NCBI GenBank assembly: GCA_950295325.1 | Contig: OX485805.1 | Location: 2,852,501 to 2,916,500, forward strand | Direction: 5' to 3' | DNA from: Polytrichum commune | Taxonomy: Eukaryota; Streptophyta; Polytrichopsida; Polytrichales; Polytrichaceae | Length of the DNA stretch: 64,000 nt | Shown here: piece by piece, positions 3,001 to 37,531 of the stretch | Layout of the letters: each line of letters opens with the position of its first letter | How positions within the stretch are numbered: the first letter of the stretch is position 1 | Translations under genes and position numbers: made by a program | The notes under the pieces: model-generated | What the model saw: only the letters and a program-made list of their open reading frames with translations | What the model was told of the DNA's origin: nothing | Database searches by the model: none

Positions 3001-3045
3001 GATGTCGAGAATGGAAATGAAGCTGAAGATGAAGATGGAGAATGA
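27..3045 (+). CDS. DUF7869-type transposon protein, two exons, 5' partial
   Basis: Two exons, 27-1353 and 1523-3045, join across a GT-AG intron with phases that match; the product is about 950 residues. The frame is also open leftwards to the window edge, so the ATG at 27 may be internal. Exon 1 has a Cys/His-rich stretch (FARCSACEKYKGLR, then CPCYARK) near the junction. Exon 2 has the core I associate with DUF7869 proteins: QLNNCAKDNKCRYVF, then FLMVGHTHDDIDASFG around window 1900-1945. That Asp/His pattern suggests an RNase-H-like fold. The C-terminus is acidic (EDEDGE). DUF7869 proteins are multicopy in plant and animal genomes and behave like transposon proteins, but their reaction is not established. 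No stop or frameshift was seen, so this copy may be functional. The palindromic array downstream may belong to the same element. Confidence 0.72.
1406..1425. repeat. Perfect 20-bp palindrome in the intron of the DUF7869-type gene
   Basis: TTACGGATGTACATCCGTAA reads the same on both strands and lies inside intron 1354-1522. Related half-sites (TTACGGATGT followed by GGA.TCC) occur downstream of the gene near 3187 and 3245. This suggests a binding motif of the element, but binding is only inferred. Confidence 0.6.
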
Positions 3046-3702: not shown

Positions 3703-4003
3703 AAATTGACTAACATATTGTCTTCCTTTAGGTCGACTCAACCTAAATTGACTAACATATTGTCCTCCTTTAGGTCGACTCAACCTAAATTGACTAACAT
3801 AATTGTCCTCATTTAGGTCGACTCAACCTAAATTGACAACATAATGTCCTCAGTTAGGTCGACTCAACCTAAATTGACAACATAATGTCCTCATTTAGGT
3901 CGACTCAACCTAAATTGATAACATAATGTCCTCATTTAGGTCGACTCAACCTAAATTGACAAAATATTGTCCTCATTTAGGTTGATTCAACCTAAATGAG
4001 TCG
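3703..4003. repeat. Tandem array of imperfect palindromes, 41-43 bp period, 7 units
   Basis: The core AGGTCGACTCAACCT recurs with cores starting at about 3731, 3773, 3816, 3857, 3898, 3939 and 3980. Spacings are 42, 43, 41, 41, 41 and 41 bp. Each core is flanked by TTT...AAA, making a near-palindrome of about 21 bp. The unit otherwise reads AAATTGACAACATAATGTCC with small changes. The array follows the DUF7869-type gene and may be its subterminal repeat region; that assignment is inference. Confidence 0.85.
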
Positions 4004-4029
4004 ATTTCCCAGCTTAACATACTCTCATT

Positions 4030-4598
4030 CACGGGTAGGTCACTCTAAGGCATTTTTGTGCACCACGTGCGGCTGGGGTTTTTTTTTTGTTTTGTTTTGG
4101 GGCTATTTACCTTCAAGGGCTAAATTAAAGCCTCCCTATAATTACATAAATTAAAAAAATGGCCCATTTGTTTGCACCCTTCCATTACTTATATTGTCCA
4201 AGTCATTGCAATTTTTTGTACTCTATATTCCTTTTAAGTAATAAAAGCTAATGTACTTCCTAAACACATTGACGAGTGTTAAGGGAAACCATGGAAACAA
4301 AGAAGGGTGCAAACAGTAATATCATTGCAAACAAAGTTATGAAGAAAACACATAGGAGACCATAGCAAACATACTAAACATACCTTCTAGGATCCTTATC
4401 TTCAGCCCCTATATTAATTTTACAAAAAAATAATGGCCCACATTTTATGTCCACTAACTTACTTATAATGGGATTGTCTACATTTAATGGCCCCTTCATT
4501 ATTTGGAATTCCTTTATAATTTTTATTTCAAATGATTTTAATCCTCTCTATATTATGCCGCACGTCGTTTTTAAAATGCACTAAGTGACCTACCCGTG
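4030..4598. mobile_element. hAT-type MITE, copy A, complete
   Basis: A 569-bp non-autonomous element. The left end reads CACGGGTAGGTCACT and the right end is its reverse complement (AGTGACCTACCCGTG), giving a perfect 15-bp terminal inverted repeat that continues imperfectly to about 25 bp. It is flanked by a perfect 8-bp duplication, CTCTCATT, at 4022-4029 and 4599-4606. An 8-bp duplication with short inverted repeats is typical of the hAT superfamily. There is no coding capacity. A near-identical copy lies at 36972-37531. Confidence 0.9.
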
Positions 4599-6764: not shown

Positions 6765-9142
6765 ATGGCCAACAAAATAGCAAGATGGCACCATGGGCCA
6801 CAAGAATGTGATTATAATCTACAAGATTTTGGTCCTTCTGTTTGTTTACCACCACCGGAGGTGATTTTTGAGATACAATGTAAACTAAGTAAAAGAAATA
6901 AAGATAATGTCTATAAGGAGATTATGGCTAGCATGGGGCTTGATAGGCCCACAACTTCATCAAGAGATGAAAGAAGCAGAGAAACTAATCATGAGAATAA
7001 TCAAGGGCCGGGTGGCCAACTAGTTAACACTCCGATACGTAATAATGCAGCTAGTCTTATGGCATTAGGCAAACATGTGTTAACACCAAGACAAGGGAGA
7101 ATATGGGAGTTTCGGAGCAAGTCCCACCTTGGAAGACAGTAAAAACAAGGTGTGGACACATACCATGGAGTAATTATTATGAAGTGGAATATCATCACAC
7201 ACAATATCCGGGGGCTCAATGACCCGGAAAACATTACAAATGAACGATGTTTTATTAACTCCTTAGTACTTAGGGCGGACATCGTCATGCTACAAGAGCA
7301 TAAATTAAGGGGCATGGCATTAGATAACTTAGGATATAGGCTCATGCCGGGATGCACTAGCTGGATCCTTAAAGCGGCACTGGGGAAAGGAGTTGGCTCA
7401 ACCCCAACACGGCGGGCAAAGGGGGGGGGTGGGAATTTTACTTGCTTAGGGTACTATATGATAATGGAGTTGTATAGATCAAACTAGAGGGGGTGGAAGG
7501 GGACAATATAGGAATCGCATGTATCTATGCGAACAGAGTGAAGACATTTATGGCATATTATGGTTGATGCCTTACCTAAGGACTGCGAATGGATCTTAGG
7601 GGGAGATTTTAACATGACAAAAAGGGTGGAAGACAAATCTAATGACTGTGGGAGAGCCGTAAGTGACTTAGAGAGATATACATGGAATGAATTGCTTAAT
7701 GCCTTCCAAATAAATGATGCATTCATCCATCTAAGGGGGCCTAGATTTCTTGGAACAACGGGCAAAAGGGCAGGTACAATGACTTCCTAGGCTTGACAAA
7801 TTTTACACGCCAAAGTATAGTAGGTTAGAGATGAAGCAATTGACATACTTCATTCATGGATACTTGGTGGGATCAGACCACTTGCCGGTCCCACTAGAAA
7901 TATGCTTTGGAAAAGGTGAAGTTAGGAAGTTAGCATTCAAATTGAATGTAGCGCATCCTGGGGGGGGGGGGGAATTGGAGAAAAACTAAAAGAAAAATGG
8001 GACAGTCTACCGAAGGACGCACCCTTCTTCTCCAAACTCAGACATATAACTAGGTATTATAGACAATACAGTAAGTAAAATGCAAAAGAACACAGGTGGG
8101 AGGAGCTTAGTACTAGGGCCAGATTGGAGATAGTAATAGCCAACTTACACAATGATATCTACAATATTGAAAAGTAGGGGGAGGTCAATCAATACAAGAG
8201 TATTCTAGAGGAAATAGAATCAAGGAATGCACGAGGGGCGGTGGTTAGATCCAAGGTTAAATGGCAAAAGGTGGGGAATAAATGTATTGCTGAATTTTTC
8301 AAATCAGTATGGCAAAAGAACACAAAAGCAATCATCTTGGAGTTGCGGGACAACCAGAGTAGATGTTTTACAAAGAAAGAGGAGTTGGAAAAGATGTGTC
8401 TAGAATTTTACAAAAATATCTATCAACATAAGGAAGTTTCGGAATGCACACTTAGAGAATCTCCCAAACACATTTATGGCCTCTATGAATGAAACCTTAT
8501 CACATGAAATTACGGAGAAAGAGCTCTCTTCGGCAATTCTCTCAATTGCTAAAGGGAAGACACCTGGGCACAATGGGATACTGATAGAGTTCTTCCAACG
8601 TTTTTGGCCAACTATTGGTCTAAATTTTTACCAAATGCTACGTAGAGGGGTAGAAGATTGGGCTTTACATGAAGGGGTGAATAAAGGGCTTATCAACCTC
8701 ATTCCAAAAGACGGTGATTCCAAAGACCTTAACTACTGGAGGCCAATTACCCTCCTAACGGCAAGCTATAAAGTTTTTGCTAAAACCCTGTAACTTAGAT
8801 TACAACCCATACTTAGGGATGTGATCAGTCCAGAGCAAATGGCCTTTCTCCCACTTAAGTTTATCTTCAATAATATTGTTCTAGCCCAAGAAACCTTACA
8901 TTGGGCAAAGGTGACTAAATAACCCACAATTTTCTTAAAACTAGACTTCTCTAAAGCCTAAGACAAAGTGTCTTAGAGGCTTCTTTTCAGCACAATGTAT
9001 AGGATGAATATGATTGAGAAATTCATAAAATGGGTTAAATTATTGTTTGAAAACGCCTCGGCCGCTATTAACCTTAATGGCATTCCGGGCAATAGTTTCA
9101 AAATAGGGAGAGGAGTGAGGCAATGTTGTCCACTTGCCCCTT
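6765..9142 (+). pseudogene. L1-type LINE, 5' part (endonuclease and start of RT), decayed
   Basis: A non-LTR retrotransposon interrupted by stops and frameshifts. The endonuclease begins near 7182 with WNIITHNIRGLND and continues ADIVMLQEHKLR, typical of the AP-type endonuclease of plant L1 elements. A second block (LGGDFNMTKRVEDKS, about 7590-7790) is the endonuclease C-terminal half. Reverse transcriptase starts near 8470: FFQRFWPTIG, LINLIPKDGDSKDLNYWRPI, LKLDFSKA and GVRQCCPLAP at 9110-9142. The RT sequence stops exactly where the Mutator-like element begins and resumes at 20581 in the same frame. A run of 13 G residues lies at 7960-7972. The 5' boundary is approximate. Confidence 0.85.
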
Positions 9143-9240
9143 GAGGGAAGCTATCTTATGAGCGATGAGCAGTGAGCGGTGAGCGGTGAGCAGTAACACA
9201 TGAGCAATGAGCAGTAACATATGAGCAATGATTCCAAATT
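9143..9240. repeat. Left terminal inverted repeat and subterminal GAGC repeats of the MULE
   Basis: After the 20-bp terminus, GAGCGATGAGCAGTGAGCGG and further GAGCRRT units follow at about 7-bp steps. The same motif in inverse orientation fills the right end. Subterminal repeats of this kind often bind the transposase; here that is inferred. Confidence 0.8.
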
Positions 9241-9359
9241 TAGTAAAGACACACGGGTTTAGGGTACACAACCAAAATTTTGACAAATTAATTGCATATT
9301 TTCAATTGTAAATTGCCAATATTTTAAATGAAGCACAAGTGAAAGGGCCCTATTTCCAT

Positions 9360-9595
9360 AGATCATTTAAAACACTTTCAATTCATTGCTGATTTTTATT
9401 ATAATAATCCAAACCAATACATGTCATTTATTGACATCCTTATACATGTAGTTACAACCAACACTTGCACAACTACTCACATTCCACAACACCATCAAGC
9501 TCAAGTAGGTGCATAACCTCATTATACGTACATGTAGGTGCCATAATTGTGAGCCACTCAAACTGCTCACGGGTTGAATTAAGGCACATAATCTA
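9360..9595 (-). pseudogene. Second, truncated copy of the transposase 3' end
   Basis: This stretch resembles 9940-10130 (for example CATTGCTGATTTTTATTATA, ACATGTCAT, TACTCACATTC/CTC, and the codons for the last residues before the transposase stop). It looks like a tandem duplication of the gene's 3' end and UTR, now diverged. It has no open frame of useful length. Confidence 0.6.
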
Positions 9596-9654
9596 CAAAT
9601 GAAAGGAAATTAGATATTAGAAATAGTCAATATGTAGGTAACTACTAGGTTTTG

Positions 9655-9860
9655 AGACATCCGCCTGTGGATGCGAGTTGTGTAAGAGACTGGTATTAGG
9701 TCTGTATCAACCCGGGTTCGAATCCGGTTGGTTACATTGATTGGTGCTATCCCAAATTGAGCTAGTGATAAAGCAGGAATAATTTATAGGCGGATACCAA
9801 GAAGACGTTACTACGCGGATGTGCGTAGAATCTTCTCAATTATTTTTTATTTTTAGAAAC
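9655..9860 (+). repeat. SINE-like insertion with exact B box (possible)
   Basis: GGGTTCGAATCCGG near 9713-9727 contains the exact Pol III B-box consensus, and TGGATGCGAGTTGTG about 45 nt upstream is a weak A-box candidate. The segment ends near 9860 in a T/A-rich tail (ATTATTTTTTATTTTTAG). It separates the two copies of the transposase 3' end. No tRNA cloverleaf could be drawn and no target duplication was found. Confidence 0.4.
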
Positions 9861-11416
9861 TTGTTATTATTTATCCATGTCAATCAATCAAACCGCTCAC
9901 GGTTGGGTCGTAGTCTAAATAGAAATGAAGTTACTGAATCATTTGAAATACTTCCAGCCCATTGCTGATTTTTATTATAAAAATCCAAACAAAAACATGT
10001 CATATTTTGACATTCAAATATATGGTACTTAATAGACCATTTACAATACTACTCACACTCTACAATACCAGCAAGTTCAAGTAGTCGCATGACCTCGTTA
10101 TAGGTATATGTAGGTGCATGAATGAATTTGTTACTCTCGTAATCCACCTTGCACAAAAATCTAAACACATAATAAAGATGTTTACAATACACCCATTTTC
10201 CTTTCTTTCCCAATGCATGAGAGGACATTTTCGTGAAATCCGGGCATGTGCAATGCGGGATGTCGCCAATTGTGACATGGTAGGTGATATCCTGCTTGGA
10301 GACAATGTTGATTATCACTCCAAAGCCCGGATATGGAATGGCAGTGACCCCAACCACATAGTAACCCTCCATGAGCCCGGCGCTCTCCCATTTGTTTTTG
10401 TGATCCGCTAGCGGTGCTGTTGGATTACGACGCACTGTCTTTCCAAACCTGAATGTAGGGTGGGCGTCCGGGTTTGGTGGCATAGAAAAATGTGAGCGAG
10501 GGATGGGGAGAGTTGCGATTGTTGAAAGCCTACGACGAGGGGACAATGCCTCCCTTTGCTGTAGTTGAAATCCAGCATCTTCAAGTGCCAAAACCTCCTC
10601 TCGCGATAGATTGGTACCTATCTTCACCGGCCATGTGTTGGGTACTATAGGCCAGTCCAACACATATTTCTTCTTACTGCCACTCACACAACGTTTGATG
10701 TCGTCAGGGCAAAACCAAAATTCATACTCCACATTGTTGGGAGAGCGAAATTCCTTCCTGAGCCCTTTGTATGTTGGAGCAGGTGTGCCATGTTTCCCAG
10801 TCCCGACTTTGGCATTGCACATAGTCCCTGTGATGGCCTGCAGTGCCCAACATCGTTTGGCTGAGTTGGGTGGTAATCTTGTAATGTGCCACTTGGAAGC
10901 AAGATAATCTGTCTCTAACACGGATGTAGTATGAGCCACACCATGAATTGTAGAACTCAACGATTCCTCTATGCGTTGACGAGTTGCTCGGGTGTTCGGA
11001 CGAGGAATGGAATAGTTCACTTTGTCGGGTCGATGAGAGTCACAATCAGCACCCGGTGGTAGGTTGAGTTTGCGTTTGGTGGAACCAAAGAGCTCTGACC
11101 CTTCCAATGCACAATCTCTAGTGTTGACGTCTTCTGCCCCTGGATAAGACTTCATGGCATCGGCCAACATTTTTGGATCTCCACACCTAGCAGCCGCTTT
11201 GAGTTTCAAGGATGCCGAATCAGGACCTTTACCATCAGACCCCTCTTTCAACCATGTCCGGTAATTTGCAATTTGCATGAAGGCACGGATCATGTCGTCC
11301 ACTGTAGCTTCATATAAACAAGTCATCTTGTTGCCGGACTGTTGGAGCCATTTGTTGTGTACAGTCTCTGCAAGGTTGCATGTTGGCATTTCCGCACGCT
11401 CTTCTATTGTCATATC

Positions 11417-11747
11417 CTATGAACAACACACAAATACAAGGATAAGACAAACATAAGATAGATTATATATCTAGGTTTGGGTCGTTCAACCCAAAATGGC
11501 TGCCACGTTTGGGTCGAACGATCCAAACTGCCTACAAGGTTTGGATCGAACAACCCAAACTGCCTACAAGGTTTGGGTCGAACGACCCAAACTGTTTGTT
11601 ATTTGTTATGTACAGTCTCTGCAAGGTTGCATATTGGCATTCCCGCACGCTCTTTTATTGTCATATCCTATGAACAACACAGAAAGACAAAAATAAGAAA
11701 AACATAGGATATATTACATTGAATAATGAAGTTTGATATGTACTTAC
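11417..11747 (-). other. Transposase intron with duplicated acceptor and exon start
   Basis: Bases 11609-11668 repeat 11357-11416: the acceptor, the first codons of exon 3 (DMTI...ERA...M) and the following 15 residues. The upstream copy runs into a stop soon after HNK. Using it would truncate the transposase before the SWIM finger. Between the two copies lies a 32-bp palindrome array. This looks like a segmental duplication; use of the decoy acceptor is unknown. Confidence 0.65.
11475..11592. repeat. 32-bp-period palindrome array, 4 units, in the transposase intron
   Basis: Units start at 11475, 11507, 11539 and 11571, exactly 32 bp apart. Each is a 22-bp palindrome with arms GTTTGGGTCG and CGACCCAAAC and a 2-bp centre, with one or two changes in the first three units; the fourth has intact arms around AA. 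Spacers are 10 bp (TGCCTACAAG twice). The same arms and period occur at 16099-16248 in the other gene of the element. Confidence 0.92.
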
Positions 11748-13849
11748 AAGTAGCATATGGCCACCCCATTGTCTGTAACGAAAGTGCCAAAATCCCAACC
11801 ACTCTGAAAGGCCAAGGATGCCTTCTTCGGAGGCAGCTCCAGATGACAACCACCAAGAACGAATAACATGGTACTTGGTCTCAGCGTCGTCCATTGTTTT
11901 CGCGTCTTTGTAATCCTTGCATATTTGTTTGTGTTGAAATTGCAAGGATGGTTTGATATACTTTTGGGTCACCTTATCCAAGCTTGCGGACCAATGAAAA
12001 AGACATGTACGCTCACGTGCAACCATGGGTAGACTTGGATCACCATCCCCATAAATCGCCCTCACCGCATTCCAATTAGCTTGAGCACTATTACCCATAA
12101 ACCCTTTGAAGTTTACGTTTGGTACATCATTATCTGCCATGACAGCATTCAAATTTTCCCAAAAGAGAATTTGCGCTGCACCATCTTCAGATTGCATGTC
12201 ACAACACGCAATAGTCAACACTTTACAGTATCGACTGTCGTACACATGGCAAGCCATGGTCGTCCAGTCCTTCAAACGTTTGACATGGTCAAACATAATC
12301 CATGAATTCTCCATATCCCCACCGACTTGCATCCTCTTCACAAGCTTTACACCACTACCTGGAAGGTCTACAGACATCTTAAAAACAAACACTTTGTCCT
12401 TTGACTGCCCTAGGAACCGACTACCATGGACGAATTTGAAAGCAGAATGGTCTTTGAGCGCCATAATACTATCCATAGTTCCCATTCCACTACGCAAAAA
12501 ACGCTTTGATCCAGATACAAAGTTACGACAATTTGGAGAGGCAAGAGTGCTGAATTTGTCCATGACGACCTCTAGGGATGAACCAACAAAGTGATGGCCT
12601 TCGACATTTGCGGGAGATTTGAGAAGGTAATCGGCCAAGAATTGTTTGCTCGCCGCCATAACTATGGCTGAATTTTTTGCTGTGGGTGTTTTCAATACTT
12701 CATTTGCAACGCATTGGTATGCCATGTCCAATGATTCACGGCATGTGCCATTGGCCACAGGGTGATCATGTACACCAAGATGAATGCAAGCCCTAGACAT
12801 TCCAACGGATGTGGAGTGAATGTATATGATTCGAGCATTACACAAAGCAATGCACACAGGTGTGGAACGATATACCTTACATTCGACAGTGGACTTAGTA
12901 GGGGTAACAACACCCACAACAAATGGGATAGGAGTTGAACCGGCCCATTCAGTGTTGTTCCGGAGGCCCCCATTGCGATTCATGTAATCACAGTAGTCAT
13001 TATGACATTGGAGATGACCAGCACAAGTAGAGCGCCGGAAGGACAGTCCAAAGTCATTTTGGATATTCGTGGTTTGGTGGTGTACCAAGGGTGACCGTCG
13101 CACATCTTGTCCATGCCGTCCATTGAGCGACCATACGTACTTGGAGCTTTGAGTCCCACAGGAGGCAAGAGAAATAAAACATTACCATTAAAAGAAGATG
13201 GTAAGTACTTGACTTCACGAACATCTATATTGTCAAAATCAATGGATGCAAGATCGGACTTTGATCTTTTTCTTGACTTTGTCAGCTTCAAGGCATCAAC
13301 CATAGTCAACCCTGTAGATGAAGGTGAAGGGTGTAGTGGAGGACGTTGAAAAGGTGAGATTTGGGGAACCACCTTTTTGTACATAAGACCGCAAGGGGAT
13401 TTGGCTACACTTCTAAATGGAAATGGCGATGTGTTTGAAAGATCAACAGATGCACAAATGTCATCTTCTGAATCTGATAGCACAAATACACTATCATCAA
13501 GGGGTTCCACCTTAACAAGTGTCATAGAGGGAATTTGAACTGTGGATGTACCGGATTCGTTTGTCAAAATGACAGTTGAAGCTTGCATTTGAGACTCAGA
13601 AAGTCCTATCACCCTAAATGAACCAGGTCCTAAGATCCACATAAAACCAACATCAGTTCTATTTTTTGGAACCAAAATCGTTTCATACACCTCTCCATCT
13701 GAAGAGTACATCTCATGCTCTAAATACATGGTTCCTATCTGGAGGTTGAATCTCAAACTAAGTAAATCCTCTGAAACACTCACATGACCATCATCTTGGA
13801 GTGGCAAGATGAAGGGAACAAAAGATCCATGAGCTCTAATGGTAGTCAT

Positions 13850-14370
13850 GGAAAATCAAAAGAACATATGAACAACACATCACAAAAATATGGGTGAATG
13901 TTGCTTTTGTATAGAGTTGTGTGAGGAAATGAATGGAAATGAAAACGTGTGATACAATAATGGATGGAGATGAAAGCGTGTGATACATAGCATCTAATAA
14001 TATAGAAGTGGACATAATACAATAATAGTCAGAGACTATTTACGAGCAAGATATACACAAAACGGCGTCAAATACTAAAAGGATTGGTAGAAATTTAAAA
14101 TATATATGTGTGGACTGACGAAGATGTAGAAAGAATTAAAATTGGTTGGAAAAATAAATTATTGATCATTATGAATAGAACAAAGTAGGTGTCAGAAAAA
14201 TTTGGCGGATATAACAAAAATAAACATATAATGACAAACGCGTTGAAATATCTCGTTCATTGAACGCCAATTACAACATGTGATCGTAATATACGCCGGA
14301 TTTTGTAAGATAGATATATTGGAAGAATAAATGATAGTACCTGATAGAAAACATATCATAGACACCAACA
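13850..14370. promoter_or_regulatory. Transposase promoter region and divergent spacer
   Basis: On the minus strand TATACAAAA at about 13913-13905 lies some 60 bases upstream of the transposase ATG and is a reasonable TATA box. The remainder, up to the lysine-rich ORF at 14371, is AT-rich without recognised features. Confidence 0.35.
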
Positions 14371-14653
14371 ATGGTAGACGATGCAGAGAGAACACCCGTG
14401 AGGCCGAAGAGAAGACGTAGGAAAACTTTGTATTTCACTTCCGAAAAAAAGAGGTTCAAACTTAGTGTGGGAAAGAATGATGCAAAAAAGGAGGGGAAAA
14501 AAAAACTTGTTGAATACGGTAGAAGAAACTGTGAAGACACTGGATTTTGATGCGATGGAGGATGATGAAGGTGCAAAGAGCAAAGAAGATGTAGACGATC
14601 GTATATCAGAGTCCGAATTGAAGACGGGTTCAAAGAAGACGACAAACAAAAAG
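14371..14653 (+). pseudogene. Lysine-rich, NLS-like short exon; candidate first exon of the ParB/methyltransferase-like gene
   Basis: An ATG at 14371 opens MVDDAERTPVRPKRRRKTLYF, with a KRRRK nuclear-localisation-like cluster, then lysine-rich sequence up to a run of nine A. One frame over, an acidic/lysine stretch (LDFDAMEDDEGAKSKED) runs to a strong donor, AAG/GTAAGT, at 14653/14654. Splicing that donor to the acceptor at 16524 keeps an open frame into the ATG at 16535. It may therefore encode the N-terminus of the downstream gene, with the palindrome arrays in a 1.87-kb first intron. The frame break at the A run argues for decay or a homopolymer error. No family is recognised. Confidence 0.4.
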
Positions 14654-14836
14654 GTAAGTCAGTTCAATGTTCACATAATTTGATAGTGCATAAGTTGTAA
14701 GTTAGGACGGAGAACCTTGTACGTTCACTCACATGTCATGTAGTAGCAATTTATAGATGTTATAAATTGGAGAGGAGAAACCCTATACGTTAATGCACAT
14801 GGTATATAACAGAAATTTAGGAAGGCTAGAAGTCAG

Positions 14837-15225
14837 GAGGAGAACGCACAGGGTTTATAAGAGCAACTTAAGAGACGAGAAGTTGGGAGGCGAAACCATG
14901 TGCGTTAACGCACAGGGTTTATAAAAGCAACTTAAGAGGCGAGAAGTTGGGAGGTGAAACTCTGTACGTTAACGTACAGGGTTTATAAGCGCAACTTAGG
15001 AAGACCAAAGTTGGGAGGCGAAACCCTGTGCGTTAACGCACAGGGTTTGTAAGCGCAACTTAGGAAGGCCAAAGTTGGGAGGAGAAACCCTGTGCGTTAA
15101 CGCACAGGGTTTATAAGCGCAACTTAGGAAGGCCAAAGTTGGGAGGTAAAACCATGTGCGTTAGCGCACAGGGTTTGTAAGAGCAATTTAGGAAGGCCAA
15201 AAGTTGGGAGGTAAAACGACTAGGA
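14837..15225. repeat. 64-bp tandem repeat, each unit with a 22-bp palindrome
   Basis: Palindrome centres lie at 14906, 14970, 15034, 15098 and 15162, exactly 64 bp apart; more decayed units precede them from about 14700. The palindrome has arms CCCTGTGCGTT and AACGCACAGGG (perfect at 15024-15045 and 15088-15109; the others carry paired or single changes). The rest of the unit reads TTATAAGCGCAACTTAGGAA then GGCCAAAGTTGGGAGG. In the unit at 14970 both arms carry the same C/G to A/T change, preserving symmetry. Confidence 0.93.
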
Positions 15226-15668
15226 GAGCCTAAAATTAAAACAAATATCTATTGTATAAATTTAAATCGATGTTCAGAACATAGGAGCAAAAAAACTATT
15301 CAAAACGAAGTTAGAATGCAAGAAATGACAAATATGACTAGTCAAGTACTCATGCAATACGTTATAGGAGCTAGAAAATGACACAAAATAGCATAAATTT
15401 TTTTTGCCCCGAAACCCAAAATCTACGAGGTGGCCCAAAACAAGGAAATAAATAGAAGAATGAGAAAAGAAAATCATTTCAAACCAAAACAAAATATAAG
15501 AAGAATTTGTAGCTACGGAGATTTAGATAATATAGCATATTTTTGTTTTTTTTTTTGATCCCATTAGCATTTTTTCCAGATTTTACAAGTTTTGGCACAT
15601 CTACGAATTCCAGATTAAATTTTTTTTTAATTTTAAAAATAACGTTTTTTTTCAAATTCACGTCTCGG

Positions 15669-15884
15669 CCCTGTGCGTTAACGCACAGGGTCTATGTGCT
15701 AACGCACAGGCCTTATGTGCTAACGCACAAGGTGTATGCGGTAACGCATAGTGGCTAGAAAGTTGCTAGCGCAGACCCTGTGCGTTAACGCACAGGGTCT
15801 ACTTGCCTAGCTAGAGGCTTCGCAAAGTTGGGCAAGTAGACCCTGTGCGTTAACGCACAGGGTCTGCGCTGGCAACTTTCTAGC
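15669..15884. repeat. 21-bp-spaced palindromes and a 131-bp inverted repeat built of palindromes
   Basis: A perfect copy of the CCCTGTGCGTT/AACGCACAGGG palindrome at 15669-15690 is followed by three looser ones with centres 21 bp apart (15700, 15721, 15742). Bases 15754-15884 then form a large inverted repeat: 54-bp arms with about one mismatch around a loop of roughly 23 bases. Each arm contains one perfect 22-bp palindrome (centres 15786 and 15851). The structure could extrude as a cruciform. It lies upstream of a TATA box at 15938. Confidence 0.9.
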
Positions 15885-15937
15885 GGCTATGCGGGGCCAC
15901 GAAGAGCCATGCTAAATATGGCTGCAGGGACAAGTAG

Positions 15938-16038
15938 TATAAATTGCCACAACCCCAAAGCATTTAGTCTTTTTTCTCTCCTCCGTCGGATCTGAGCTCA
16001 TCGCTGCAAGCTCTCTCATCAACAGGTGCAGTACAAGG
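15938..16038 (+). promoter_or_regulatory. TATA box and leader of the ParB/methyltransferase-like gene
   Basis: TATAAA at 15938-15943 is followed about 30 bases on by a pyrimidine-rich stretch (TCTTTTTTCTCTCCTCC), typical of a plant transcription start. A leader of about 60 bases ends at a donor (CAG/GTGCAG at 16026 or AAG/GTTTGT at 16038), and the matching acceptor is TTTTAG at 16524. The leader intron contains the 32-bp palindrome array. This could be an alternative to the start exon at 14371. Confidence 0.45.
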
Positions 16039-16098
16039 TTTGTTTACACTTTCGTGGTGACTGGGTAATTGCGCATAATCAGGCGTAAATTGCGGACA

Positions 16099-16311
16099 GT
16101 TTGGGTCGGCCGACCCAAACTGTGAGTATGGTTTGGGTCGATCGACCCAAACTGTCTACCTAGTTTGGGTCGAACGACCCAAATTGTGTGCCTAGTTTGG
16201 GTCGATCGACCCAAACTGTGAGCATGGTTTGGGTCGTTCGACCCAAACCTCGCGTCCAACTTTGTTAGACCTGTAGTTTGACGCACAGACCCTGTGCGTT
16301 AACGCACAGGG
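16099..16311. repeat. 32-bp-period palindrome array, 5 units plus one of the other type, in the leader intron
   Basis: Units start at 16099, 16131, 16163, 16195 and 16227, exactly 32 bp apart. Arms are GTTTGGGTCG and CGACCCAAAC; the inner four bases (last arm base, 2-bp centre, first arm base) read GGCC, GATC, GAAC, GATC and GTTC. Three units are perfect 22-bp palindromes. Spacers are 10 bp (TGTGAGTATG, TGTCTACCTA and relatives). A perfect copy of the other palindrome type (arms CCCTGTGCGTT/AACGCACAGGG) follows at 16290-16311. Confidence 0.94.
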
Positions 16312-16534
16312 TTTGGCCTTGTAGTTTTGGGATGAGCGGCCACCCTAATCGTACAATATTTAAAGGTGCAAATGACTGTGTCTAGAATAATTTTTGTCAT
16401 TCTTCCCTGTGTTCGTGGTATTCTGTTGTTATTGTTGTTGCTATTGCTGTTGTTTTTGTAATGTTATTGCTAATGTGTTGCTACTTGTTTTGAAATATTT
16501 ATAAAACTTATTTCATTTATTTTAGGACCAATCA

Positions 16535-19500
16535 ATGGATTTGGAAAGAACGACTCCTATTTCTACTGATGATGATTCCACAATGCATTCAACTCAAGAT
16601 CGTCCATCTCAACAAGTTCATCATCATCATGACATATTGTCAAATCTTCATAATAAGAAAAAGAAAAAAAATAAATGAATCCCTCGATAATTTTGACTCG
16701 GATGAAGATAATGATGGTGACAATAAAATTTATCAAGAGAAAGTGTGGGAGCTTACGAACAAACGAAAGGTCAATTCCACTTCCACAATTTCTTCAATCC
16801 GTGCTGGACCTAATGCTCGCTTGCGTGTACCCTTGTGTCGCATGGTTCCTATGCCGATTGTGCGTCCTGCTTTGAAGGGTGACATTACTAAATTGGAGGC
16901 TGATTTTTTCAATGGTTATCGTGATGGTGACCGTGTGTTTTATATATCGGCCACCGATTCTAAGGGAAACTTTCAATTCGTGGATGATGAGGTTCGCGCA
17001 TCTTGGAGCCCAAATTGGGCTCAAGCCAATGCCCTGTTTGAATTTCAATTGGATACAAATTTGTCATTGACGTCATACAAGAACAAGATGTTTTTTATAT
17101 GGGATGGAAATCACAGATTTCTTGCTTGGAAAAATTATATTGACCGCGTATATACCGAAGATTATGAACGTCATGTCTTTGTGGATTCTATCATTTTGGC
17201 GCCCGAGCCTGACGACATTCCAAGTTTGTTGACTGCTATGCATGACATCAACAAGTAATGTTCTTACCTATTTTTTTACACTTATTTCTAGTTTATATTT
17301 TTTTTTCCAAATTATATCATCATGAATCTAATCAATTTAATGTTTCTTTTAGGTCAACCGAAAATTCTCACGTATCCACCAATTTGGTGCATACTTTATA
17401 TCGGATGCAAAGTATTGGTACCATGCCTTTGACTTCCTTCCGAAAGCAACTGGATCCAAAGAGTTATAAACGATGTGAGGAGAAGTCCGTTGAAACTTTG
17501 TATTCTTTGACACGACCAATTTTTTGGATTACATGTACAGTGTAAGTTCTTCTACCATTGCTAATATGTGCCTTATGTTTATTTACCTTCATTTTACATT
17601 ACATCTATATGAACTTATAAATATTGACTTTTGTTTGATTTTTCAGCAAGAACTTGCTGAGGCTAGCGATATTGCTTTCAACCAGTACAATGAAATTCAT
17701 CCTCTTGAACGGACATCAGACGGAGTTTCAAAAGCAATGTCCGCAGCTGTCAACAAAAAACGTGCAATGTTATCTTCTAGTTTTACGAAACAACTAGCGA
17801 TTGCCGATATCAACCTTACCTCTACTTTCCTTGAAGAAGTTAAGCACCATTGGGGTTCATTTTCGGTGCCTGAAATGCTACAAGAGAAACTTCATCGTGT
17901 TGCTGTCAGTAATGTGGATGCAGAAGTCAAAGTTGGATGGCTCAAGCTTTGGAATGGCAATAGATTTGACAAAGATGCATTGCATTTTCCGAAATCGGCC
18001 CTCTCTGATTCTGCACTTGATGATTGGTTATCAAAGTCTACATATTGGGCACAGTTGGAAAAAAAGGCTATCGAAGAGCTTCAAAGTATTCTTTCATCTC
18101 CTCTTCAGTTGCCTGCAGATGTGCCTACTCTCTCCGAGTATATCCAAACCTGGAAGTTTGCGGCTTTCAATTCAATATTCTATCGTGAATTCCAAAGCGG
18201 AAAAGTTAAAAAACACAACGGTTGGGATGAACAACCTAATATTGATCTTGCTATGAAACGTGTATTATACAGGTACAACCTAATTTTATTATTTTTTTGA
18301 TTTTTTTGATTCCATTTGTCAAATTGTCATGGAATATTTGACTTACAATATTTTTGTGTATAGGTATTTTCGATATGTTTTGATTCCACATAAATGCGTT
18401 ATAGGGGAACCTCGTTTTTTCCCAAATTGGCGTGACACTGGTGCAGAAGATTCATGCATGTTCACTACTGAGATTTATTTGAATTGGTCACTCCCACACT
18501 ATGAGGATTGTGGTTGGTATCTTGATTGTCCTAAGGATGCATGTCCGTCAAATGAGAAGACAATCCGTCAGATAAATGATGCTAAAAATGTGGATCCTCG
18601 TGATACTGCAATTTTGCAAGTACAAATTGTACAACTTAAACTTAGAGAGCCAGAACCAAAAGAGATAAAACGTCGTAAGAGGAAACATGTTCCTGAAACC
18701 AAAATACAAGATCAATCGGAAATTTCACAACATGAAGAATTGCTTGTTCTTTCCAATGATTTAGATAAGAATCCACTTGGAGGCGAAAGTCAAAGTCTGG
18801 GTGCGATGTATTGGAATTCCATTACTCAAGCACCTATGACGCTATTCATCGTGCGCCAACGAATGTTTTGAGAAAATAGTTATTCATACTGAAGAACTTT
18901 CTCACGCTCTCTTTTGCTCGATCTACTGCTGTCAAGAACAAGTCTGAAGGGGTTGAAGTAGGCCCTCCTGAGTGGATCCAATGGCGGACATTTCTTGAAA
19001 ACGTAAGTATTATTGTTTTGGTATTTTCTGTAATGTTCTTACTTTCATTTGGATTTTATTTTGTGTCTTATATTATGATATGTTGTGGTATTTCAGTTCA
19101 AAGACAATCGCGAATTTCATGTCAGGGGAAGTCCGACTCCATTTGCCGTTGACTTGGTTTTTCTGCAATTTCCCGACGGTCTTGACTTCAACCTCTCCAA
19201 TAGACCTGCTGAAATTCCTCTTTGGAATAAATATGACAAGAACTGGATGGTTGCAACAATGTCCTTGTGCAAGTCCATCTTGTCTGATGATGGCGCCCTC
19301 ATAGTATTTTCTGCTATCGATATGCAAACCAAGAAGGTTTTGAATTCAACCTTACACAACGGCAACATGAAAGTTCTAAGGACTTTTATTTGCCTCAATT
19401 CGTACATGGTGTTCAAGGATCCGGAGTCTCCAACCTACACCGTAAGTATAACATATCACAATTGTTTCTATTTAATTATTTTGGTGTTATTTGCATTGTA

Positions 19501-20352
19501 TATAGTTTTAACACAATTTATATTTTTTTGTAGACTCCGGCATTTATGGCTCATGTCTTGGTAAGGGATTTTACTACCACAAAATCCACGAGACAACCAA
19601 ACTCCACTTTTTTCGGCACTGGATTGAAAAGCAAAAACTTGCTTTTCAATTTTGTGGATGAAAAAAACATGCTTCTTCTAAAATCGGGAAGACCTTGGAG
19701 GGGGCCATATAAAAAATCGCCGCGTTTTTTTTAAGATCTTATTGAATTGTTTACACCATCGAATGGACGCGTTGTTGATTTGACATGTTCCACTGGAGCT
19801 TCTATCCTAGCAACACGCGCATGTGGCAGACATCTTCTTGCATTTGAGGGTGATAATGACATGTTTGAGCACATATTGAAACCGCTTTTGGAAAACGTTT
19901 TGAAAGAGGGGTCATCTAAAGAGAATATACAAGATCTCACAAAAGAAGATGATAACCTCTCAGATGAGGAGATGCTTGAATTTGAGTGTGAGTAAGTTTT
20001 AATACAATAAATTTTTATTCAATTCATTCGTTTCATTTAATTCATTGGTTCATTTTGATTTCTTCACATTATTTACATGTTTCATCGATTTGATTTCAGG
20101 AATACGATTGGAAAGAGGACATGTCTCCCGTTTTGGGCACATAGACAATTCCTACGAAGTCCAAGCCGTAGCCCGCGTCTCCCATCATATGCCGAGAATG
20201 TTGCAATTGCAATGTTGAATCTCGAAGATTCGGATCCAAATGAAGAATCTTGCTATAGTTCCAAAATCAATTCGCAATGCGAAGGTGCTCGAATATATAT
20301 AGATGACGAGGCAAAAGATAGTTTCATGTCTAGTGCTACTACTGATGAATAA
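16535..20352 (+). pseudogene. ParB/sulfiredoxin-like domain fused to beta-class DNA methyltransferase-like domain, broken copy
   Basis: Exons: 16535-17254, 17353-17539, 17647-18272, 18364-19002, 19097-19441, 19534-19991, 20100-20352; all introns are GT-AG with compatible phases. The N-terminus is Asp/His-rich. A ParB/Srx-like region follows (FFIWDGNHRFLAW at about 17090, then an AMHDINK stretch), then about 350 unrecognised residues. The C-terminal part has the beta-class amino-MTase order: VDLVFLQFPDGLDF in the motif IV place, SILSDDGALIVFSA, then SPRFF..LIELF and RVVDLTCSTGASILA...GRHLLAFEGDNDMF (motif I, SAM binding). The catalytic D/S-P-P-Y is not evident, so activity is doubtful. Damage: a shift at the A run near 16668, two or three shifts between 18830 and 18930, and an in-frame TAA at 19732. 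Family assignment rests on motif order only. The role is likely DNA recognition or modification serving the transposon. Confidence 0.5.
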
Positions 20353-20570
20353 ATTTTTGGACTTCATGTTGTTTATCCTTCTCAACCCTCTTATTACTAA
20401 ACCCTAAAATCATCATTTTTAAGGCCACAATTCCACAGTTATAGGATATTGGTGGCCCTATTACCAAAATTTTCATCTTCCTCACTGCTCATAAGTTACC
20501 GCTCATCGCTCACCGCTCATCGCTCACCGCTCATCGCTCACCGCTCACCGCTCATAAGATAGCACTCCCC
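20353..20570. repeat. 3' flank and right terminal inverted repeat of the MULE
   Basis: About 120 bases of 3' UTR-like sequence are followed from about 20480 by CACTGCTCATAAGTTACCGC and then repeated CTCATCG/CTCACCG units up to CTCATAAGATAGCACTCCCC, which ends at 20570. This is the inverse of the left terminus. Confidence 0.8.
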
Positions 20571-20580
20571 CTTGCCCCTT

Positions 20581-21870
20581 ATCTTTTCCTCATTATAGGA
20601 GTTGTGCTCACACATATTATCAAGAAAGCGGTAGCCGCAGGGAGGTTAAGAGGGATATTGTTGCCAGGATAGAACAAAAAACAAAACACCTCATAATACG
20701 TGGATGATTCTTCATTCACGATTAGAGGAGATAAGCAATATGTTGACGAGTTGGTCCGCCTCTTTAGGGCCGGTTCACACTATGGCCAAACTTCGAGAGG
20801 AGAAGCGTTTGGACCAATGAAAATGCAAAAATGTCCAAAGTCTGTCCTCTCGGCCTTCACACTAGAGGCCGAAGTCCAAAGGACGTCGCCTCCAAAAGAG
20901 CCTAGGTGGCAACACTTTTAGGAAGTTATGGCGCCAAGAGTTTGGCCTCTCGAACAAAGTTTGGGTCGAGCAAAATGCTCGACCCAAACTTCCATCGAGA
21001 GGCCGAACTTTTTTTTCATTAAAATATTCAAAATCTGACAGTGGATTATTTTAATATATTTTTTTCAGCCCAAAGGCTTCTCCTCTCGACATAGTTTGGT
21101 CCAAAAAATTGACGTTTTTCCTTTTGACTTGGACATACTGTGAACCGGCCCTTAAAGTATTTAGCGAGGCATCCGGATTGGAAATTAATTGGGAGAAATT
21201 ATGCGCATATTGGTTCGATAAATGCACGTACAAGCCGGAATGGTTTAACGGGTACAATTGATAGTGGGCAGAAGAAGGTGACCTCTCAAAGTTACTCAAC
21301 ACTTCATTCGGGTTGAACCTCAACCCGCATGATGTGGATCGTTTTCTCTATGGGAAAATTGCTAAGAAATTGGAATACTGGAGTACGATGAAACTTTCAC
21401 TTGTTGGGAGAGCAGTCATATGCAATCAAGTGCTACTCTCCACCCTCTGGTTCTTCATCGCGGTGTGGGCGGATCTAAAATCTTAAGCAAAATTAAAGAT
21501 GCAATTCGCAATTATTTATGGTCCGGGAAGGAGCAACTTACCCAAATGAGAGTTAGTTGGAGAGAATGTTGCTTGAAGAAGAAATATAGTAGCCTTGGGC
21601 TAGTGGACCCAGAGGCAACTAAGATTAGCCTCCTATGTAAGTGGATTGTTAAGGCTATGGAACCGGGCGAATTTAATCTACAATTGTTGCTTAGGTATAG
21701 ATTGACTAGGTTCAACCCGCAAAGAGGTCGTAATTGGGGGGTCAGCCTTGACTGGTTTACAAGCAAATTGCACCAAGATTTCCCGGGGTCCAAGATATGG
21801 GACAAGATTAATCTACAAGATTAATAGCACAAATTTAGTGGTGGCCCGTACGACAAAATGGCTCAATGGC
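20581..21870 (+). pseudogene. L1-type LINE, 3' part (rest of RT), decayed
   Basis: Continues the RT frame interrupted at 9142: YLFLIIGVVLTHIIKKA, then YVDDSSFTIRGD (the catalytic YVDD box near 20697), then, across the Harbinger MITE, LF/KVFSEASGLEINWEK. The later parts, KIAKKLEYWSTMKLSLVGRA and VSWRECCLKKKYSSLGLVDP, are typical of L1 RT C-terminal regions. Several stops and shifts make it inactive. The 3' end is approximate; no poly(A) tail or target duplication was located. Confidence 0.8.
20767..21151. mobile_element. Harbinger/Tourist-type MITE inserted in the LINE
   Basis: A 385-bp element with inverted termini: GGGCCGGTTCACACTATGGC at the left and, read inwards, GGGCCGGTTCACAGTATGTC at the right. 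It is flanked by TTA at 20764-20766 and 21152-21154, the 3-bp duplication typical of PIF/Harbinger. Removing it restores the LINE frame. Inside, at 20959-20989, is an inverted repeat with arms GTTTGGGTCGAGCA and TGCTCGACCCAAAC around AAA. Those arms share their first ten bases with the palindromes of the neighbouring MULE. Confidence 0.88.
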
Positions 21871-27473: not shown

Positions 27474-30400
27474 ATGGCTAGATGCACACAAGGTGCTCGG
27501 ACATTGTACTTGGTGTTTGGAATGATGAGCAGTTTGTGGAGTCTCAACACTATGCCAATCAACGGGGCTACAAATCCACCAGGTACTACTCAATGGTTGC
27601 AGTAAGTTTCTAAGTTTGTATATTTATGTAGCGAGGGGGTTGTAAAAGTTTACGTCAATCATGACTGTAGTTATAGGCTTCTACCCAATGTAATCTCACC
27701 TCTTGCTGCACAATGCTGTCCTTTGATTGTCATCTTCGCATGAATCAAAATTTTGATATTGAAGTTTTTCCCTTGCTAGTCATATTTGACTGACGAACAA
27801 GTATATTTTCTCCTATGAGTGGCAGGGTTCGTCTACATCGATTGTGGTGCATCAGCTGCATATGCTGACCAAGTGACCGGCTTACAGTGGGTCCCAGATG
27901 ATGGCTTTATTACGACTGGTGTGAACGTTGGCAATGTAACTGTCGACTCGTCTCATTCGGAATTTCCTGAGCTTACAACCCTTCGATACTTTAATGAATC
28001 TTATCCCAAAGATTGTTACAGCCTACCGGTGACACCCAAGGCCAAGTATTTGGTGAGAGCAAGTTTTTATTATGGAAACTATGATGGTGCTTCAACGCCT
28101 CCTACTTTCCAGATGGCAATTGATGCAATAATCGTGGCCAATATATCCACTTCAACAAGTACCTTTGTGTATGAAGAGTTTGCAATAACATCTCAAAGTA
28201 ACGTGACCTATCTTTGCCTTCTAAGAGATTGGTCTAATACAGTGCCTTTCATCTCTGCTATAGCTTTACGACCTTTTACATCATATAATTATGTTATGGA
28301 TGATATCCTTGCTTCTCCTCGATATCTTTTTGTTATTGCGAGGTTGAATCTTGGCGGAGTTGGTCCCATGATAAGGTACGATTCCTCAACTTTGTTGATT
28401 TGGCCATCAAAAGCCACATGTTTTATGTAGTTCGGTGCATTAAAGAGATGACTTTGATAAAAAGAGTCGATGATAAGAACACACATGTCAAACTTGAAAC
28501 TTAATCAACACATTTTATAATTAGTAACTTAATCATCATGTTTATTGAACTCTTTTGATCTATTCATAATTTGGAGGTTAATAATTTCTCCAAACAATCG
28601 AATCTATGTGAATAAAGACTTGATAAATTTTGGCTTGATATTTTCTTTGAAATCCTACGAATTGAATCATTTAGAAACCAATCAATGGGAAATTTTGATG
28701 TTAGTATAATTGTGTAGTTTTAAATTTTTTTAATGGTGGTCAAATTATTTGCAAAAAAAGTCAAATTCGATTGCAAGTTTTTGTAGTGCTCTTAATAGGA
28801 TGTTGTTGATGCAGATACCCGGATGACAAATTTGATAGATATTGGTACCCTGAGAATGTGGATAGTCCATATGTTTCTACAACAACAACATTAACCAATT
28901 TATCCACATCTTATGTGGTGGATAAGCCGAGAACTTACGCAGCTATCCCATCGGTTGTTTTGCAAACTTGTTTGACCGTGACCAGCCTTGGAAACATGAC
29001 AATCTTAAGCAATCTCATTCCCCAAAATGTTGAAGCATATGTGGAATTCCATTGGGCTGAATTGGATCCAAAAGTAAATGCATCCTCAAGACAATTTTGG
29101 GTACAAATACCTTCTTACAATGATGCATATGAAGATACCTTCAATTCTAGCGGGGGACTATATAAGCAAGATTATTGGTTCTTTTGGAGTGTACCTTTAA
29201 CTACATCAACAACATCAACTCCTGAATTTGTATTATATCCAACCCCACAATCTATATTTGGGCCTTCATTGAATGCGTTGGAAATATATGGAGAAACAAA
29301 CAATATATCTTTGACATCCACTGAACTTGATGGTGAATATTCTACTTCACCCAAACTAATTTGATGTAGATGTTAGAATATTGGTGTTGGTGTTAGAATA
29401 TTACCAAAATACATCATGTATTAAGTCGTTGGCATCATCTCAAATATCCATTGTTGATATTTGCAGCTGAGGCTATTGAGGCTATCAAATCAAGTATGAA
29501 TCTAGGAAAATGGAGTGGTGATCCATGTCTTCCGTCTCCTCATTCATGGCTCACTTGTGACAACATTTCACCTCCATACATTCTTGCAATGTAAGTATGT
29601 CTTCTATCTTTCGATAAATCCTAGATATAATTAGAATGCTTAGGTTAATCGATATAATTTGATTCGATAAATAAATGACTTAGCTCAAAAGAATCATTTG
29701 TGTTTTTGGTCTATGATTTGTTTATTCATGTGTATATGTATATGTGCATGTGATTAAACAATCATTGGTTTATTTATGTGCATACTTGGACTTGATTCTA
29801 GTTGTAAACCAATGATATCAAGTGGCCCTCAACTATTTTATGTTTTCATAATACGGAATATCAACTAATAGTTGTTAAAATCAGCTACAAACATTGTATT
29901 ACATGATATTAGGAAGAGAACCTTAATCTTGAAATTTGAGCATACAAAGGTGGTCAATATATATGTTTTGATTGTCATTGCAGAAATCTATCCGGATATC
30001 AATTAAATTCAACCATTTCTCTGAGCTTTGCCCAACTTGTGAACCTCACAAGCTTGTAAGTAACTTTGACCATTTATTTATATTATGTTGTATTTTCTTG
30101 TTGGTGTGATTGAAATCATGAACTATGAGGACTTTTTTGTTATAACCTTGTCATGAAAATTGGGAGTAAATTGTATTTTTAATTTTGATGAATAAAAAAT
30201 ATGATTTAGTATTAGGTTGCTATTGTTGGAATGCATTTATTTTATTTATGCAAAAGATTATGAGTAACTTATAATTAGTGGATGAAGGATTAAACTAGCA
30301 TTATGGTAATTTAGAATATTTTGGCCAAAACTCGACAAAACAGGTGCATGTTGTCATCCTCCGAAACCCCTTGATATTGTGACTTCTTCCCACAACTTGG

Positions 30401-35695: not shown

Positions 35696-36670
35696 TGTCA
35701 TGCACCTCTCCATGAGGAGTTCCCGAAACATCATGGGCACAAGGAGGACCCCGGAATGACACCTAGGACTTGTGGCGCCATTGGTGAGAGGGCCCAAGTG
35801 ATCCTAGTGTGGGGGAGGGCCCCGGGCGTTGGGAACGCCTCCCACCCATGGAGACTAGGAGGCACAAGGGTAAGGCCATGAGCTTTGTGTAGCTTATGAC
35901 GTGTAGATTCTAGAATGCTCAAGAATACCTTAATCGGAGGTGTGAGCTAGGAGATATGGCAATTTGAGTGGGGCGTTGTCCCGGGACAGCGCCCTGGTAC
36001 AGCAGTGGCCTGGGAGTGGCTCTCGGGACTGCCAAGGTTTAAACAGGCATAACTTCCTCAATACTTGCCCAAATGGGGCAAGTGAGGGGTTCATTGGCAT
36101 TTAAGTGAATTGTAGATGAAGATGGACTAGTCGCTTGTTAGCATCAGAGATCACATAAAGAAGTTAAAATGGTCTGAAGCTATTGGGGGCTTCTAGGCCC
36201 AACAGCTAAGGGAAAATGTCTACTTGGCCCCAACTCTTGGTAGAGAGACAAAAGGTTTCTTGACGGTGGGGTAGGGGCCCCGCGTAGAGTCCTAGAGGCT
36301 TATATGGGTGAGGTGGTGTGGCCTCACCCACCCGAGGCCGAACGGCACGGCCTTCATGGGCATTGGCCCAATGTGACGCCATAGTTGCCTAGTACGCTTC
36401 GGGTTGTTGTAGTGTTGCTCCGGCAACGCGATGATCAGCATAGGATTGGACTTCCATGGATGGAAGTCCACATCTAGGAATTGGTTACCGATTAAGGGGT
36501 GAATCCTAAAAAGCAAAGTAGGAGGGTTGGTTCCCTTCTTATGAATTATAAGGTCTGGGGTAGAAGGAGCTAACCATTTCCATGGCGGAATGCGAAGGGT
36601 TAGCGCTCGTGACCCTTGCTAGAGATGAAAATCGGCAAGTTTATTAAGGGGGCTAGCAAGGGTTGCAACA
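35696..36670 (+). mobile_element. 5' LTR of a Gypsy-type retroelement derivative
   Basis: A 975-bp long terminal repeat starting TGTCATGCACC and ending GGGTTGCAACA (TG...CA). It is followed after two bases by a primer-binding site. A related, truncated copy in the same orientation starts at 39840, and a third 3' fragment lies on the minus strand at 55000-55357. Flanking target duplications could not be checked because the second LTR is truncated. Confidence 0.75.
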
Positions 36671-36971: not shown

Positions 36972-37531
36972 CACAGGTAGGTCACTCTAAGGCATTTTGT
37001 GCATCACGTGCGGCCGGGGTTTTTTTGTTTTGGGGCTATTTACCTTCAAGGGCTGAATTAAAGCCTCCCTATAATTACTTAAATTTCAAAAATGGCCCAT
37101 TTGTTTGCACCCTTCCATTACTTATATTGTCCAAGTCACTGCAATTTTTTGTACTCTATATTCCTTTTAAGTAATAAAAGCTAATCTACTTCCTAACGCA
37201 TTGACGAGTGTTAAGGGAAACCATGGAAACAAAGAAGGGTGCAAACAGTAATATCATTGCAAATAAAGTTATGAAGAAAACACATAGGAGACCATAGCAA
37301 ACATACTAAACATACCTTCTAGGATCCTTATCTTCAGCCCCTATATTAATTTTACAAAAAAATAATGGCCCACATTTTATGTCCATCTTACTTACTTATA
37401 ATGGGATTGTCTACATTTAATGGCCCCTTCATTATTTGGAATTCCTTTATAATTTTTATTTCAAATGATTTTAATCCTCTCTATATTATACCGCACGTCG
37501 TTTTTAAAATGCACTAAGTGACCTACCCGTG
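36972..37531. mobile_element. hAT-type MITE, copy B, complete
   Basis: A 560-bp copy of the element at 4030-4598, differing by few substitutions and small length changes in the T and A runs near the left end. The left end reads CACAGGTAGGTCACT (one change from copy A) and the right end AGTGACCTACCCGTG. It is flanked by a perfect 8-bp duplication, TTGGGAGG, at 36964-36971 and 37532-37539. The unrelated duplications prove two independent insertions. Confidence 0.9.

Follow-up and report, generated by a model that had tools for sequence, protein, structure and literature searches.

The window analysed here, a 64,000-nucleotide stretch of the Polytrichum commune genome, carries a transposable element of subfamily S1 in which a transposase gene on the minus strand and an accessory gene on the plus strand (16535-20352) lie in divergent orientation. 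The termini of the element are GAGGGAAGCTATCTTATGAG and CTCATAAGATAGCACTCCCC. Its outline is as follows:

9143..20570, no strand: S1 transposable element, 11,428 bp, with inverted ends of about 90 bp made of TGAGCGG-like units
9133..9142, no strand: left target-site duplication, CTTGCCCCTT
20571..20580, no strand: right target-site duplication, CTTGCCCCTT
10049..13855, minus strand: transposase gene, apparently of at least two exons, broken in the window

The span 9143-20570 had been given in the original prediction and was borne out, with CTTGCCCCTT flanking it on both sides. A perfect 10-bp target duplication was present in all six S1 copies checked (the window copy and five others, both ends read). 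Mutator-like elements are defined by long terminal inverted repeats and a target duplication of 8-11 bp; here the inverted repeats measure about 90 bp and the duplication 10 bp. The earlier label of Mutator-like is upheld by the inverted ends and the duplication; the Pfam MULE transposase profile (PF10551) matched none of the S1, S2, S3 and fourth-group transposase pieces. ORFs that we take to be reverse-transcriptase or LINE-like lie on either flank of the element (8404-8793 and 20697-21824, with a YVDD motif near 20697); because they occur on both sides, a LINE-like copy was apparently the insertion site of the S1 element. Rfam had no matches in the window. Within the LINE-like copy, a MITE-like inverted-repeat element was recognized by eye at about 20760-21155, with ends GGGCCGGTTCACA and TGTGAACCGGCCC.

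Accessory gene and linkage to the transposase

The gene beside the transposase is an accessory gene of seven exons that encodes a 1076-aa protein and is broken in the window and open elsewhere. The window copy is arranged as follows:

16535..17254, plus strand: exon 1, coding for the N-terminal tail and the ParB/Srx-like domain (DGNHRFLAW at 17103-17129), with a frameshift near 16672
17353..17541, plus strand: exon 2; frameshift near 17524
17647..18272, plus strand: exon 3, part of the middle region, without an assigned fold
18364..19002, plus strand: exon 4, middle region as far as the methyltransferase-like part, with a frameshift near 18800 and an in-frame stop at 18877
19097..19441, plus strand: exon 5; motif IV position VDLVFLQFPDGL at 19148-19183, DDGALIVFSA at 19286-19315
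19534..19991, plus strand: exon 6; PWRGP..KS at 19690-19719, stop at 19732
19765-19812, plus strand: motif I in exon 6, GRVVDLTCSTGASILA, containing VVDLTCSTGAS
19825-19860, plus strand: motif II in exon 6, GRHLLAFEGDND, containing LLAFEGDND
20100..20352, plus strand: exon 7, C-terminal tail

All six introns of the window copy are GT-AG, and their lengths agree within 2 bases in ten other copies. Eight exons had been counted at first; 16535-17254 is a single exon that an A-run frameshift splits in the window, which leaves seven, while the quoted motifs (DGNHRFLAW, DDGALIVFSA, GRVVDLTCSTGASILA and GRHLLAFEGDND) were all found. Compared with open copies, the window copy is a pseudogene with three frameshifts (near 16672, 17524 and 18800) and two in-frame stops (18877 and 19732). 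Ten further S1 copies were chosen in which exon 1 is open and the transposase mostly so. Two of these (L009, 1076 aa, and L011, of equal coding length) are read in a single frame to a terminal stop only, with all introns GT-AG. Two others (L014 and L015) are open with one altered splice site each, L013 is without a stop and altered in length, and internal stops or frameshifts occur in five of the ten.

With the ParB part of exon 1 as query, the genome had at least 150 matches (150 scored of 1,209 candidates), and 122 of the 150 listed have 81-100% identity; the exon-6 part likewise had at least 150 genome matches (150 scored of 783 candidates). The ParB part has 72 database relatives at E < 1e-12, and none was found in viral contigs. 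Given the 150 listed genome matches and the 72 database relatives, the accessory gene is not a chance ORF. Its protein is under purifying selection. In 30 pairwise comparisons between two S1 clades (five versus six copies, some of them broken), dN/dS was 0.14 for the whole protein, 0.11 for the ParB part and 0.31 for the methyltransferase part. The dS between S1 clades is 0.44 in the ParB part but drops to 0.025 in the C-terminal tail, which points to mosaic ancestry or to gene conversion among S1 copies. A further insertion splits one S2 accessory gene between its methyltransferase pieces (L028 with L031).

A 742-aa transposase ORF is open in many copies, and the transposase C-terminus has a weak SWIM-like CxC..CxH pattern (SWIM E 0.079, below cut-off). 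Searching the 408-Mb genome with the transposase ORF gave at least 85 copies (85 scored of 2,541 candidates), a list biased towards S1 because the query came from S1. In order to assess linkage, S1-type was taken as the 134 of 150 listed ParB rows with at least 50% identity, and S2-type as 72 of the 150 rows of a separate list, picked by eye with the other 78 (mainly groups at 58-66% and 43-49%) excluded. Among the 85 transposases listed, 65 have a divergent S1 exon-1 match no more than 15 kb away (no more than 6.3 kb in 64 cases), and same-strand exon-1 neighbours number zero (random placement mean 0.26). The remaining 20 comprise nine with an S2-type exon at 4.1-5.0 kb and 11 with neither type, and no listed transposase has both cargoes. 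This linkage and the target duplication support the ParB-like gene as part of the transposon; relatives of the gene are indeed linked to the transposase, at 65 of the 85 listed, as the original prediction had anticipated.

Domains of the accessory protein

For the first exon, a ParB/sulfiredoxin fold is predicted. An AF2 model of its domain (pLDDT 84.5) had ParB, Noc, PadC and sulfiredoxin as its top PDB matches, which agrees with the ParB/Srx setting proposed earlier for DGNHRFLAW and, as regards the ParB part, favours the fold that had been expected. The DGNHR box, which we take to resemble nucleotide-site boxes, is kept in 10 of 11 S1 copies. Pfam ParB models matched 0 of 26 aligned ParB-part sequences at E 1, a PDB search by sequence profile found no ParB for this part, and PDB searches by single sequence returned nothing for the methyltransferase part and, for the ParB part, three rows at the level of chance. 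Pfam searches with single exons gave nothing meaningful; the spliced window protein matched no family at E 10, and hence lacks the DUF1985/DUF287 of the Arabidopsis protein VANC. The single-sequence structure model of exon 3 (pLDDT 40.9) gave no assignable fold, and neither a DNA-binding domain nor an HTH was recognized in the accessory protein.

The C-terminal part is supported by homology as an amino-methyltransferase domain. In an alignment of four sequences (two S1, one S2 and one S3), PF01555 matched 4/4 with a best E of 1.1e-6, the one member shown scoring 22.0 bits against a cut-off of 26.7; PHROG 3008 matched 4/4 (best 9.8e-5) and PHROG 67 matched 3/4 (best 3.6e-8). A profile of this part retrieved DpnA (4.5e-6) and CcrM (5.7e-4), the latter aligned across profile positions 8-226 of 234. 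These profiles bear out the beta-class order of motifs (IV, then I and II) that had been read from the C-terminal half. An STG or TTG core persists in motif I, as does the acidic residue in motif II. There are 24 phage records that cover 80% or more of the S3 domain at low identity, and the matches to phage and bacterial enzymes make a prokaryotic origin of the gene plausible.

Active beta-class amino-methyltransferases have the catalytic motif [DNS]PP[YFW]. Opposite ADPPYNL of CcrM, S1 has LQFPDG(L or F) in 11/11 copies, S2 has ADYPDGL at two loci and S3 has ADLPEGL at one locus, so that in the three subfamilies sampled the catalytic DPPY is absent and [DQ]-x-P-[DE]-G stands in its place. So regular a replacement would point to altered function rather than decay. 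The accessory protein is probably not an active methylase, and with DPPY missing from motif IV in S1, S2 and S3 the modification role once suggested for it is unsupported.

Palindrome arrays and exchange between subfamilies

Two kinds of palindrome, A and B, form arrays within the element:

11475..11592, no strand: array of palindrome B with a 32-bp period (GTTTGGGTCG NN CGACCCAAAC, plus variants), between two transposase ORFs
14783..15171, no strand: palindrome A array, CTGTGCGTTAACGCACAG and variants, 64-bp period
15669, 15773, 15838 and 16289, no strand: more palindrome A units, 5' of the accessory gene (15669..16312 region)
16096-16248, no strand: palindrome B array, upstream of the accessory gene

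The window holds 24 perfect palindromes of at least 14 bp, 11 of which lie at 14899-16312, directly 5' of the gene. Palindromes A and B both occur in 10/10 fetched S1 copies. The three elements with S2 cargo (L026-L028) contain neither A nor B within the mismatches allowed and have GTGGCCGTTAACGGCCAC instead; CGTTAACG is the core common to the S1 and S2 palindromes. Exact genome sites number 502 for the S1 palindrome A, CTGTGCGTTAACGCACAG, and 143 for the S2 palindrome, GTGGCCGTTAACGGCCAC, versus none for either reversed control. Sites were listed in contig order, and the first 50 of each palindrome were paired with genes: 45 S1 and 43 S2 sites lay within 6 kb upstream of a gene of their own type, none of either lay near a gene of the other type, and 5 and 7, respectively, had no assigned gene. 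Random placement would give 0.16 and 0.09. Dyad arrays were present at 7/7 S3 loci, with dyads of 18-24 bp, a 2-bp centre and two kinds in two sub-branches: GTGTCTCGG-NN-CCGAGACAC at four loci and, at the other three, GGTTTCGG or GGGTTCGG around a centre of 2 bp. Across seven loci of S1, S2 and S3, inverted repeats (arm of at least 8, spacer 0-6, overlapping registers included) number 19-53 per 10 kb versus 0.4-1.8 in mononucleotide shuffles. Bacterial parS half-sites are GTTTC..GAAAC-like. The dyad of one S3 sub-branch, GGTTTCGGGACCGAAACC (L019, L020 and L024), has GTTTC..GAAAC half-sites at a wider spacing, perhaps by chance.

Within 151 units of S1 arrays there were 222 one-sided mismatches, 22 double non-complementary and 4 double complementary; because the mismatches are mostly one-sided, there is no compensatory signal in S1 arrays. 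Array CpG observed/expected was 0.89-0.95 in S1, 0.89 and 0.73 in S2 and 0.34 in S3, and CpG retention was rejected as a sign of hypomethylation since it is inconsistent across the three. A forecast written beforehand for a fourth group was partly borne out: tandem arrays lie upstream of the gene at 2/2 loci, mostly as direct repeats, with one dyad at 1 and 4 copies; the transposase is divergent in L034, and a transposase fragment lies on the same strand in L033. Cargo matches of 58-66% identity in the same genome form a further large group with long open frames. The transposase pieces of its loci L033 and L034 are nearest to S3, and their arrays are direct repeats of 22/53 bp.

Comparison of one copy each of S1, S2 and S3 gave transposase identities of 92.1% (S1-S2), 43.0% (S1-S3) and 42.7% (S2-S3), and ParB-domain identities of 41.8%, 44.1% and 43.4%, respectively; the S1 and S2 ParB domains are thus no closer to each other than to that of S3. 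At the DNA level, S1 and S2 are similar across the transposase half; the similarity ends in the intergenic region and resumes only at the right end, which implies that cargo and array were exchanged together. On the evidence of these comparisons, cargo and palindrome array have been swapped as one cassette under a nearly identical transposase. Since the transposase has hardly changed, it is unlikely to read the palindromes, and the cargo protein would be their natural reader. The association of different gene versions with different repeat sets suggests that the protein recognizes its own transposon; the DNA recognition role put forward in the original prediction thus gains support by way of the private palindromes.

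Proposed function and related systems

The molecular detail of how a transposon stays expressed despite the silencing of repeats is known for VANC in Arabidopsis. In the moss, a protein without VANC domains appears to have arrived at the same layout of own-element repeats, fast specificity turnover and a conserved transposase. It is hypothesized, with a probability of roughly 0.5, that the accessory protein recognizes its element at the arrays and sustains transcription of its own element type alone, in the manner of VANC. We infer that the protein binds the palindromes, counters silencing by this binding and has an inactive methyltransferase part; by analogy with VANC it is perhaps an anti-silencing factor. 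ParB dimers act on palindromic parS. The ParB/Srx-like module and the middle region would probably sit as a dimer on the palindromes between the divergent genes and in apparent introns. The methyltransferase-like module, with SAM-site features kept and DPPY lost, would probably sense SAM, dimerize or contact chromatin without methylating. Binding of the promoter-adjacent arrays would then leave only the protein's own element type transcribed. A bolder, parS-like version, which we consider very improbable, would have a ParB-type nucleotide-gated clamp load at the private arrays, spread and exclude silencing, with a dead SAM-binding domain as sensor and with types diverging by exchange of clamp gene and loading site under a nearly unchanged transposase. 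The ParB-CTP/parS partition system resembles ours in its palindromic sites and predicted N-terminal fold, although our protein has no recognized HTH and no Pfam ParB match.

What counts against recognition is that neutral repeats would also travel with the gene in an exchanged half-element. The want of a recognized DNA-binding domain, of a compensatory signal in S1 arrays and of consistent CpG retention counts against it too, as do the forecast for the fourth group, borne out in part, and the 5 and 7 sites without an assigned gene. The arrays could be neutral or host-bound tandem repeats that hitchhike with that half, the cargo having an unrelated function. Tandem repeats expand freely, fourth-group arrays are mainly non-dyad and compensatory changes were not found in S1 units, all of which would suit this reading, but the recurrence of dyads in S1, S2 and S3 at 19-53 versus 0.4-1.8 per 10 kb makes it distinctly unlikely. 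Some ParB-like domains are nickases, and a transposition helper that builds up the transposition complex or introduces nicks, with the arrays as helper sites, would accord with the divergent pairing of 65 (S1) and 9 (S2) of the 85 transposase copies listed. A Bacillus ParB-methylase is reported as nicking DNA in the relevant part of PMC5512222. We hold a helper to be unlikely, given that the arrays are internal and not at the element ends, that arrays and cargo differ between S1 and S2 whereas their transposases are almost identical and their right ends alike, and that 55 of 122 S1 exon copies among the matches listed have none of the listed transposases beside them.

Active self-modification, in which the protein binds the element and marks it by methylating adenine (N6) or cytosine (N4), would draw on the matches to PF01555 (4/4, best 1.1e-6), DpnA (4.5e-6) and CcrM (5.7e-4), on the retained STG/TTG core and motif II acidic residue, and on the 4mC or 6mA predicted for a similar algal (Ectocarpus) protein in the passage describing it (PMC12477816). 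With DPPY replaced by QFPD in S1 (11/11), DYPD in S2 (two loci) and DLPE in S3 (one locus), we judge this quite improbable.

ParB-methyltransferase accessory proteins have been reported in Ectocarpus transposons (PMC12477816), and the idea that the combination was unpublished was therefore rejected. As described in that passage, the Ectocarpus protein likewise unites both domains in about 1,100 aa (1104 there, 1076 here) and is encoded opposite to the strand of a DNA-transposon transposase. The likeness is one of description: the transposase there is Sola, whereas here there are 10-bp duplications and a Mutator-like layout, the catalytic motif is lost here, and the Ectocarpus passage does not mention private arrays or cassette exchange. 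Phage and bacterial ParB-methylase fusions, as seen in phage protein models and in the relevant part of PMC5512222, differ from the intron-bearing gene in a eukaryotic transposon found here, with its long middle region and absent DPPY. VANC/VANDAL is an anti-silencing system of Arabidopsis (PMC5735166 and PMC10398659, in the passages concerned), in which VANC binds noncoding tandem motifs that differ between related VANDALs while the transposase is more conserved (PMC5735166). Going by these passages, the two systems share a Mutator-like element, an accessory gene, fast-changing noncoding tandem targets and a transposase that is better conserved than the accessory protein. They differ in that VANC has DUF1985/DUF287 and the 9-base YAGTATTAY, whereas the moss element combines a protein of ParB-methyltransferase-like type with dyads that measure some 18 bp or longer. 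In the open-licence literature nothing relevant was found on either ParB or methyltransferase domains in elements of the Mutator-like kind or of mosses or bryophytes, and a limited search of it turned up neither private arrays nor exchange beneath a common transposase, and neither a lost catalytic motif nor Mutator-like occurrence. S1 and S2 amount to a natural swap experiment, as their transposases are nearly identical while cargo and palindrome differ, and self-recognition is thus directly testable. The protein also raises the question of what role a methyltransferase domain of bacterial type has in a eukaryotic nucleus once its catalytic motif is gone.

Elsewhere in the window, a 41-bp tandem repeat of four copies (3804-4008) has an imperfect dyad around GGTCGACTCAACC and adjoins a 539-aa ORF (1426-3045); the two may make up a further element that has an array to itself. 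The ORFs at 42230-49003 on the minus strand presumably belong to a CACTA/tnp2-type transposon, and those at 27819-29364 on the plus strand resemble what we take to be a malectin-type receptor kinase ectodomain. A repeat of about 510 bp occurs twice, at 4087-4598 and 37020-37531 (96-99% identical, 32.9 kb apart), and a direct duplication occupies 35696-36242 and 39840-40407 (82-85% identical, about 4.15 kb apart).
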